This document shows, one piece after another, positions 5,475-7,282 of a stretch of 59,099 nucleotides of DNA. How positions within the stretch are numbered: the stretch's first letter is position 1; every line of letters starts with the position of its first letter. A program made the position numbers and the translations under genes. Source of the DNA: Piscinibacter sp. (GTDB lineage: Bacteria; Pseudomonadota; Gammaproteobacteria; Burkholderiales; Burkholderiaceae_C). The stretch lies in NCBI GenBank assembly GCA_017983795.1, contig JAGOAS010000025.1, forward strand, positions 1-59,099, given 5' to 3'. The notes beneath the pieces were generated by a model. That model did no database searches, was not told the origin of the DNA, and was given only the letters and a program-made list of their open reading frames with translations.

Positions 5475-6599
5475 TCAACGGTCGCCCAATCTGTCGCCCA
5501 TCACCCCCCGATACCACTCGTGGAAGTGCTGCATGCCGTCTTCCATCGGGCTCTGGTAGGGCCCGACCTCGTCGTCGCCGCGTTCCATCAGGGCGCGGCG
5601 ACCGGCGTCCATGCGCTCACCGATCTCGTCGTCTTCCTTGCAGGTCTCCCAGTAGGCGGCCTGCTCGGCTTCGACGAACTCGCGCTCGAAGGCGGCGATC
5701 TCCTCGGGGTAGTAGAACTCGACCATGTTGAGGGTCTTGTCCGGGCCCTTGGGGAACAGCGTGGAGACCACCAGCACGTGCGGGTACCACTCGACCATGG
5801 TGGTCGGGTAGTAGGTCAGCCAGATCGCGCCGTGGCGCGGCGCCTGGCCGTCGCGGTAGGCGAGCAGCGCCTTCTGCCACTCGCGGTAGGCCGGCGAGCC
5901 GGCCTTGGCGGCCAGCGCCTGGTTGGGGCCGACGGTCTGCACCGAGTGGTGCGCGCCGAACTCCCAGCGCAGATCCTCGCAGGTGACGAAGCCGCCCAGC
6001 CCGGGGTGGAAGGGTGCGACGTGGTAATCCTCGAGGTAGACCTCGATGAAGGTCTTCCAGTTGTACTGGCACTCGTGCAGGTGCACGCTGTCGAACACGT
6101 AGCCGCTGAAATCGAGGTCGGCCTTGGGGCCGAGCTGCGCCAGGTCGGCATTGACATCGCGGCCGCGCGCCTCGAACAGCAGCCCGTTCCAGTTCTGCAC
6201 CGGGTAGTTGCGCAGGTTCAGGCAGGGGTCGTCGGCGAAGTGCGGCGCGCCCAGCAGCTTGCCGCCGGTGTCGTAGGTCCAGCGGTGCAGCGGGCAGACG
6301 ATGTTGCTGCCGGTGTGGCCGCGGCCGCGCAGCATCACCGCCTGGCGATGCCGGCAGACGTTCGAGATCAGCTCGATGCCCTTGGCCGTGCGCACCAGCG
6401 CGCGGCCTTCGCCTTCCTGCGGCAGGGCGTGGTAGTCGCCGACCTCGGGCACGGTCAGCTCGTGCCCCAGGTAGCGCGGGCCGGACTCGAAGATCAGCTC
6501 CAGCTCGTGCCGGTACAGATCGGCGTCGAAATAGGTGGAGACGGAAAGCTGCGAGCGGCTGCGCCGCAGCGCCTCGATCGGGACGCTCAGGTCGGACAT
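5475..6599 (-). CDS. Rieske-type aromatic ring-hydroxylating oxygenase, large subunit
   Basis: A 374-residue Rieske non-heme iron oxygenase alpha subunit. The [2Fe-2S] Rieske motif is complete: C82-x-H84, 17 residues, C102-x2-H105. The catalytic iron site follows in EVYLEDYHVAPFHPG, with H193 and H198 as ligands. Together with a partner reductase such proteins insert oxygen into aromatic or other substrates, or demethylate quaternary amines. No ferredoxin, reductase or small subunit gene is adjacent, so the electron donor must be encoded elsewhere. The start MSDLSVPIEALRR at 6599 is preferred over an in-frame ATG 39 bases upstream, because family members start close to this point. The gene is alone, flanked by a repeat on each side. 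Many Burkholderiales carry this orphan Rieske gene; its substrate is unknown to me. Confidence 0.85.
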   Translation of the reverse strand: MSDLSVPIEALRRSRSQLSVSTYFDADLYRHELELIFESGPRYLGHELTVPEVGDYHALPQEGEGRALVRTAKGIELISNVCRHRQAVMLRGRGHTGSNIVCPLHRWTYDTGGKLLGAPHFADDPCLNLRNYPVQNWNGLLFEARGRDVNADLAQLGPKADLDFSGYVFDSVHLHECQYNWKTFIEVYLEDYHVAPFHPGLGGFVTCEDLRWEFGAHHSVQTVGPNQALAAKAGSPAYREWQKALLAYRDGQAPRHGAIWLTYYPTTMVEWYPHVLVVSTLFPKGPDKTLNMVEFYYPEEIAAFEREFVEAEQAAYWETCKEDDEIGERMDAGRRALMERGDDEVGPYQSPMEDGMQHFHEWYRGVMGDRLGDR

Positions 6600-6714
6600 G
6601 ATCCCCAGGATCTCCAAAAACCGATGTCGAACCGCCACCCCGGCGCACCGGGCGTGGACCTTCGTGCCGCCGGGCTTCGGCGGGGCCGCGGATTGTACCC
6701 AGGGGGTGTGTCGA

Positions 6715-6982
6715 GGGGCCTGTTCACACTACGGATACCAGTGCGAACGGGCCTGGCAGGGCGCAGGGCAAGGCGCACGACGACGCCAAGCCTGGACGGC
6801 TTGGCTAGGAGCGCAACGCCGCCATGCGCCCTGCCAAGCCCGTTCCCTTCGGGTTGCCACGACAAAGCCCGCGCGCGGCGTTGCAAACCTTGCCCAGGCG
6901 TCCAGCCTGGGCCGCGGTCCGCGCCTTGCTCGCGGGCTTTGTCGTGGCAACGCATCTGGCATCCGTAATGTGAACAGGCCCC
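6715..6982. repeat. 268-bp palindromic (MITE-like, cloverleaf) element
   Basis: The ends are 27-bp inverted repeats (6715-6741 and 6956-6982, 25 of 27 matching, beginning GGGGCCTGTTCACA). Inside are two long hairpin arms. Arm 1 has a 23-bp outer stem (6745-6767 with 6823-6845) and an 8-bp inner stem GCCAAGCC/GGCTTGGC around TGGAC. Arm 2 has a perfect 21-bp outer stem (6853-6873 with 6931-6951) and an 8-bp inner stem GCCCAGGC/GCCTGGGC. The cores of the two arms (6768-6823 and 6874-6929) are diverged inverted copies, about 75 percent alike, but their outer stems are unrelated. It has no coding capacity. This looks like a non-autonomous mobile or structural element. Confidence 0.75.
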
Positions 6983-7008: not shown

Positions 7009-7014
7009 TACAAT
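7009..7014 (+). promoter_or_regulatory. Putative -10 box of the xseB operon
   Basis: TACAAT matches five of six bases of the sigma-70 -10 consensus and lies 20 bases before the xseB start. No good -35 box is visible, because the upstream DNA is the right end of the palindromic element. The placement means that insertion of the element could have affected expression of xseB, ispA and dxs. Confidence 0.35.
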
Positions 7015-7033: not shown

Positions 7034-7282
7034 ATGGCAAAAGGCTCGACATCTCCCGCCGCCACCACCGCCGCCCCGCCGGCCAGCTACGAGGACGCCC
7101 TGCGCGAGCTCGAGCGCCTCGTCGCGGGCATGGAAGGCGGCCAGCTGCCGCTCGACCAGATGCTGGACAGCTACCGCCGCGGCGCTGAGCTGCTGGCCTT
7201 CTGCCGCGGCAAGCTCGAAGCCGTCGAGGCACAGGTCAAGCTGCTCGAGGACGGGCAGCTCAAGCCCTGGATCTCCGGATGA
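7034..7282 (+). CDS. xseB: Exodeoxyribonuclease VII small subunit
   Basis: An 82-residue small subunit of exonuclease VII, which with XseA degrades single-stranded DNA to oligonucleotides in the cytoplasm. The diagnostic stretch is [33 protein letters not shown], followed by a helix ending in LKPWISG. The two-helix size fits the family of about 80 residues. The start at 7034 (MAKGSTSP) is chosen because it gives the usual length; an in-frame ATG at 7001 would extend into the promoter. The stop overlaps the ispA start as ATGA, the classical xseB-ispA-dxs order of proteobacteria. Confidence 0.93.

Follow-up and report, generated by a model that had tools for sequence, protein, structure and literature searches.

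Within the window, by which we mean the whole 59,099-nucleotide stretch of Piscinibacter sp. DNA analyzed here (genome G000), a cloverleaf-shaped element separates two divergent genes, one for the alpha-subunit of a Rieske/ring-hydroxylating oxygenase and the other xseB, which is followed downstream by ispA (NF045485) and dxs (TIGR00204). A first-pass annotation had placed the element ∼50 bases 5' of this operon, and the start of xseB is indeed 51 bp beyond it. Open reading frames traverse the region, as is common in high-GC DNA, and the element itself is apparently gene-less. By eye, two outward-pointing TACAAT-like boxes, at 6692-6697 (reverse) and 7009-7014 (forward), bracket the element; both are also kept in G007, and the insertion into this divergent promoter region left the two intact. 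The window copy is apparently not transcribed, a reading that rests on these boxes, whereas a scan for consensus promoters gave none in its vicinity.

The same annotation had described a 268-bp repeat in which 27-nt terminal inverted repeats surround two large hairpins with inverted, diverged cores (about 42 of 56 positions), and measurement recovers this anatomy (Table 1). The stem of arm 1 (6745-6769/6821-6845, 25 nt) is 92% paired and that of arm 2 (6853-6876/6928-6951, 24 nt) 96% paired, and the arm cores are mutual inverted copies over 55 nt (6768-6822/6875-6929, 75%). The length, however, needs revision, as most sister copies reach their match limit one base inside these ends, leaving a common unit of 266 bp. 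Folded as single-stranded DNA, the element forms an outer stem and two arms with a minimum free energy of -119.3 kcal/mol, compared with -64.6 ± 3.9 for shuffled sequences (z -14), and none of 200 shuffles was equally stable. A model of the arm (R1) scores the two true arms at 96 and 87 bits, and its third-best match within the window reaches only 17.

Table 1. Features of the cloverleaf element and its neighboring genes in the window
Feature	Position	Strand	Basis or remark
Rieske/ring-hydroxylating oxygenase alpha-subunit gene, divergent neighbor	5475..6638	-	PF00848, PF00355
Cloverleaf mobile element, 266-bp unit	6716..6981		alignment to sister copies
268-nt variant of element	6715-6982		counts extra G/C pair common with C45:226092 copy
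Left terminal inverted repeat/outer stem	6715..6741	+	27 nt, 93% complementary to 6956-6982
IS5-type end GGGCCTGTTCACAC	6716..6729	+	1 mismatch vs GGGCCTGTTAACAC of G011 IS
Arm 1 hairpin, core on minus strand	6745..6845	-	model R1 6748-6842 -, 86.8 bits
Conserved core of arm 1, GGCGTTGC...GCGCCTTGC	6768..6820	-	core motif
Mini-hairpin linker joining arms, CCCTTCGGG	6845..6853		sequence
Arm 2 hairpin, core on plus strand	6853..6951	+	model R1 6855-6949 +, 96.4 bits
Conserved core of arm 2	6877..6929	+	core motif
Right terminal inverted repeat/outer stem	6956..6982	-	27 nt, 93% complementary to 6715-6741
IS5-type end, right copy	6968..6981	-	single base off left copy, at 6968
xseB, divergent neighbor, first gene of xseB-ispA-dxs	7034..7282	+	PF02609

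The element belongs to a mobile family. Its own genome gave 11 BLAST matches, a number that includes the self-match and hits on both strands, and 15 matches to the arm model (E ≤ 1e-4); a copy at C45:226092, inverted relative to that in the window, shares 93% identity with it, and one at C45:225110 shares 69%. In a set of 60 genomes, its own included, 22 gave matches, so that the other copies which the first-pass annotation had proposed to search for do exist. Full-length copies of the window's end type (type A) comprise 36 distinct sequences, the window copy among them, of 265-270 bp, with 27 measuring exactly 266 bp. Seven further genomes of the genus were searched, and at the xseB promoter site each of them lacks the element, with flanks that align; IspA is 82-92% identical across the genus genomes compared, and G007 is the nearest in sequence at the site. 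The dinucleotide TA stands on both sides of 25 of the 36 full-length type A copies, on one side of 7 and on neither side of 4, compared with a flank background of 0.95%. The target-site duplications that had been sought are thus found in the family but not at the window copy, which belongs to the four with TA on neither side. From the empty sites and these flanks, the family appears to have moved as a transposable element. At one locus (L054, ∼550-602, in G012:C7) a type A element has inserted at a CTAG within the conserved core of another arm (GCGCCTAG), and the core can therefore itself contain the preferred CTAG target.

Shorter forms also occur. Elements with one arm measure, for example, 182 bp (at C7) and 151 bp (in G007), and TA-flanked palindromes of 31-39 bp that consist of the two ends only (L354, L355, and L356, in G006 and G021) are possible deletion products or empty coats. 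The one-arm and arm-less forms fit the arms being losable modules.

The arms extend far beyond the genus. At E ≤ 1e-4, R1 matched 34 of 143 genomes drawn from the class, with up to at least 29 matches per genome, and 36 of 200 Pseudomonadota genomes, with up to at least 21; both samples contain G000 and overlap in some genomes, and many of the hits are single. Folds were inspected for 25 loci from far genomes (L158-L178 and L210-L213), in two of which (L165 and L174) the folded stretch did not cover the arm. A BLAST search of plasmids yielded copies with two arms in the fold from Halomonas sp. PA16-9, Burkholderia cenocepacia CMCC(B)23006, and the Azotobacter chroococcum plasmid pAcX50f, in each of which R1 picked up one arm; four other BLAST hits were rejected, having proved to be hemB genes. 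The 22-base left end with its TA is also present in contigs of Pelomonas, Ideonella, Piscinibacter, Aquabacterium, and Rivibacter. It occurs too in a contig assigned to a Candidatus Peregrinibacteria MAG (L109, MNZJ01000025.1), possibly through a binning error. On viral-classed IMG/VR contigs the core pattern gave at least 120 stretches, and 5 of the 100 of those 120 that were rescored carry arms (L256, L249, L285, L333, and L282).

For a comparison of the arms themselves, an ungapped alignment of whole elements, which lost arm 2 because the arm lengths differ, was replaced by arms anchored on the core. The 176 arm placements, which include alternatives for the same arm, were reduced to 112 and then to 34 clusters, and these align without gaps outside the apical hairpin. 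Each arm is built from a basal helix of 22 bp and a further helix of 7 bp, with an internal loop between the two and a second loop separating the 7-bp helix from the apical hairpin. In the 34 clusters, standard pairs make up 86.3% of the pairs compared with 55.0% after shuffling and 34-44% with slid partners, a set pre-filtered for ≥15 of 20 pairs and hence circular for pairing. In an unfiltered check, ≥13 of the 20 basal pairs form in 99 of 103 strict cores, one of the four exceptions being the L054 arm whose CTAG is interrupted by another element, and a reversed-motif control returned one site, with 5 pairs. Stem positions mostly carry all four pair types with near-perfect pairing, and stem covariation is 0.724 in the 34 clusters (0.181 shuffled) and 0.822 phylum-wide in an alignment of 93 distinct arms (A3; 0.180 shuffled), A3 having been fitted to R1 and R1 built from filtered arms, so that its pair counts lean toward structure. 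Two of the five covariation measures do not, or barely, exceed shuffles: pairs changed on both sides number 32 compared with 29.7 in the 34 clusters, a value reached by 35 of 500 shuffles (18 of 500 for A3), and further pair types in A3 were reached by 500 of 500. The covariation in both arm sets supports the proposal that pairing is kept while stem sequence varies, as expected of selection on structure.

What does not vary is largely unpaired. The conserved core of the arms reads CGTTGC...GCGCCTwG, and the letters invariant in the 34 clusters are mostly unpaired (G26, T27, T28, and G69-T72), together with the closing pair C22-G74. Columns 24-30 and 67-72 keep one base at ≥80% across 94 arms from 56 loci, which come mostly from far genomes, with three arms from G000 and several from one genome. 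Arrangement is equally regular, as 34 of 35 adjacent arm pairs across these mostly far loci run minus-then-plus, such a pair being present at 34 of the 56 loci, and in 33 of those 34 the gap between R1 model ends is 9-13 nt. The sole minus-minus pair is at L170 (12-210, G116).

An ordinary MITE, whose hairpins are kept by mutation bias only as template switching or hairpin repair copies strand onto strand, would show the same almost fully paired stems, with most positions occupied by all four pair types, and require no structural selection. Some close copies already show changes on both sides: between the window copy and C45:226092 (19 differences), 13 pairs changed over both folds combined, of which 5 changed on both sides and stayed Watson-Crick and 8 on one side. 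In 52 pairs of 266-bp copies with ≤45 differences, sequence pairs that are not independent, the ratio of compensated to one-sided changes is 5:44 at ≤10 differences, 40:142 at 11-20, and 115:280 at 21-45, with 0, 9, and 26 other two-sided changes, respectively. The compensatory changes that the first-pass annotation had called for are found in part: in the covariation of the arms they are strong over long divergence, whereas one-sided changes are the majority in every bin and among the close copies. The compensated share nevertheless climbs with divergence, which fits the expectation if mismatches arise singly and are then mended by selection, and stepwise compensation accounts better than strand copying for this rise and for the 44 one-sided changes against 5 in the closest copies. 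Correction of one strand by the other should also have erased the fixed, unpaired GTT and GCCT of the loops, and it is at odds with the phylum-wide conservation of the core columns and with the conserved basal helix length, arm order, and gap. On this balance we consider mutation bias as the sole cause unlikely.

Whether DNA or RNA is the selected form had been left open by the first-pass annotation. The basal helices of the 34 clusters contain 657 Watson-Crick pairs, 13 G·T, 23 A·C, and 55 other mismatches, and the skew between G·T and A·C per element is as expected by chance (χ2 31.7, 31 df). A selected RNA should tolerate G·U on its own strand; G·T is not favored over A·C, so the constraint looks DNA-level. 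Together with the site of the window copy between apparent divergent promoters, these counts lean toward DNA as the likelier form. The alternative, that the cloverleaf acts in transcripts as a small RNA, terminator, RNase III site, or mRNA stabilizer and that its mobility is incidental, is attractive for the stability of the fold and for the one-sided decays of the window copy, which are mostly A·C and so would be G·U on the minus strand, and RNA action is proposed for other bacterial MITEs (PMC2229807, PMC10969869). However, G·T is not favored over A·C and the per-element skew is not overdispersed; no strand is favored, because the element is dyad-symmetric; the copy sits between two outward -10-like boxes seen by eye and conserved in G007; and Rfam 15 gave no match above the gathering score in 7 loci, the 7 hits of a further search each falling below it. 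We judge an RNA element to be improbable.

Arms and ends behave as separate modules, an alternative the first-pass annotation had raised and which the data support, as they combine across three end types. A type A arm (C45:225110) and an arm from an element with type C ends (L075) are 88% identical over 95 nt, although the outer stems of A and C are only 30-47% identical. A third outer stem (D, GAGCTTGAGAGG) is present in the window's own genome at C16 and C4, with 30-43% identity to A and 50-60% to C, and the arms inside it share 74-84% identity with arms of type A or C. This comparison recorded pairs of ≥70% identity only, and the arms of the window copy form no such pair with any C or D arm included in it. 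Within a single genus, homologous arms are thus enclosed by three kinds of end, with duplications of two lengths. Independent origin of similar hairpins in two or more unrelated MITE families, with no shared cassette, would suit the low identity of the A, C, and D outer stems (30-60% over 30 bp, C against D 50-60%), but not the 74-88% identity over 95 nt, basal stems included, of some arms across end types, nor a core motif common across the phylum, and such convergence seems very improbable.

The ends point to candidate helper enzymes, and the partner transposase with similar ends that had been suggested has counterparts in two IS families. In G011, a genome of the same family, nine loci carry an IS5-family IS with ends GGGCGTGTTAACAC and GGGCCTGTTAACAC, and the outer 14 bp and TA target of the element match this IS. 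Both IS ends lie 820-824 bp apart with TA outside at eight of the nine loci; at L119 one end differs in its first base. Against the IS5 transposase model NF033580 (cut-off 110 bits) its second open reading frame scores 133 bits and its first 107. These two reading frames (L112-L121) lie in different frames around an A-rich run, an arrangement consistent with programmed frameshifting. No PF13340 gene was found in G000 itself. Of the 11 type C elements (from G006 and G004), 8 are flanked by identical TNA triplets, and scanning three further loci in those two genomes for ends yielded none. The type C ends resemble those of an IS1182-family IS of which the genome of the window has one copy, at G000:C44 (1659 bp, flanked on both sides by TGA, 373 bits against NF033551). 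Measured for the type C elements other than L071, its right end has 2 mismatches of 17 to L064, L065, L066, L068, L072, L073, L075, and L076 and 4-5 to L063 and L067, and its left end has 2-6 of 17 mismatches to the eight elements that best match the right end. Among the end types, which also include GAGCTTGAGAGG and GAGCGTGTTTGCG, the types GTGTCCTGTC, GTACTCTTTC, and ACCCGGCAAC, with others, are without an assigned helper.

Other helpers were considered and, for the window's end type, rejected. An IS630-type enzyme was suggested for it by the TA target, but the IS630-type loci examined are without such ends: at nine of them in five genomes the window-type end (≤3 mismatches) was found only in a one-arm element beside L084, and at the two where ends were definable both are unlike the window's. 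Among 15 genomes with other end types, IS630-type genes occur in 3, and the definable ends there differ. For these far genomes the picture is mixed, since in G181 a ACCCGGCAAC end lies beside an IS630-type transposase gene with no left partner found (L208), and ACCCGGCAAC-type ends enclose ∼240 bp adjoining an IS630-type gene (L209). A loose regular expression for the core, applied near RAYT and IS loci, was discarded because it matched everywhere in GC-rich DNA. Y1 (HUH) enzymes recognize bulged hairpins with conserved unpaired bases, and Y1 transposase genes occur in 6 of 10 genomes searched, yet a REP/RAYT-type element moved single-stranded by such an enzyme through its bulged hairpin core is the least probable reading of all and RAYT was dropped as a partner, since the arm-carrying G000, G006, G002, and G032 among those ten have no Y1 gene and the ends with their TA/TNA flanks fit DDE transposases.

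We therefore consider it probable that the element is a non-autonomous, MITE-like hairpin cassette that unrelated DDE transposases mobilize in trans, with arms kept as DNA hairpins. Copies, an empty site, TA/TNA flanks, IS-end matches, covariation, an unpaired conserved core, and the sharing of modules all support this explanation, and from them we infer that the element is transposed in trans, that it is selected as DNA and not as RNA, and that a factor binds the core. The element would consist of two half-units in inverted orientation, joined by the mini-hairpin, each comprising one hairpin arm and an end to which the transposase binds. A TA-duplicating transposase of the IS5 family would recognize the outer ∼14 bp and move it in trans, and the presence of the same arm cassette inside other ends (IS1182-like with TNA duplication, and others) suggests that it is not bound to one helper. 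The arms may be kept as hairpins in the single strand at a replication fork or in an extruded cruciform; the basal and apical helices would need only to pair, and the sequence-conserved internal loops would probably be read by a putative protein factor. Hairpin repair may, through mutation bias, contribute to stem pairing, but it leaves the conserved unpaired loops unexplained. Against this explanation weigh the missing TA at the window copy, the location of the matching IS5-family IS in another genome, and the single copy of the IS1182-family IS with its less similar left end. The additional empty sites and the one-sided changes pull our confidence in opposite directions.

By the features tested, namely terminal inverted repeats, target-site duplication in the family, autonomous relatives with the same ends, and insertion polymorphism, the element is a MITE, and its novelty lies in its interior; no description of it was found in searches of papers and of Rfam, ISfinder lying outside that comparison. 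More tentatively, and with slightly less than even confidence, we propose a phylum-wide superfamily of hyperparasitic DNA, in which a hairpin cassette selected as folded DNA, its loops read by a conserved host or element protein, has repeatedly swapped ends and been carried by unrelated IS (IS5, IS1182, and others). If true, this would show a way for a gene-less element to outlast any single helper. The strong covariation of its natural copies would also be evidence that folded DNA is under selection in bacteria, and the defined loop motif could be used to capture the protein partner.

Most accounts of known MITEs regard them as decayed derivatives of a single IS, whereas here the interior is conserved and the transposase-binding ends appear exchangeable. 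Integron attC sites, which are recognized as a folded single strand, likewise conserve structure above sequence, but by eye the attC consensus boxes are not evident in the arms, and these sit between transposon ends. REP/REPIN sequences are palindromic and non-coding with conserved unpaired bases, as is the element. They differ from it in size, REP palindromes being 20-40 bp (PMC3733652) and the present arms ∼100 nt, and several hosts of the arms are without a Y1 gene. The CIR repeats of Caulobacter and Brucella, compared by their description in PMC2229807, also have two long inverted repeats and two arms joined by a linker, but are there described without a terminal inverted repeat or outer stem and with GANTC at the loop. 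According to the same source, RUP, Correia/NEMIS, and ERIC are short, non-coding elements with terminal inverted repeats and TA termini or targets, as here, and RUP is thought to be mobilized in trans by IS630-Spn1, which shares its ends (PMC2229807). The present element differs from these TA-target MITEs in having two internal arms whose stems vary around a conserved loop core, in its occurrence within both IS5- and IS1182-type ends, and in its spread across the phylum.
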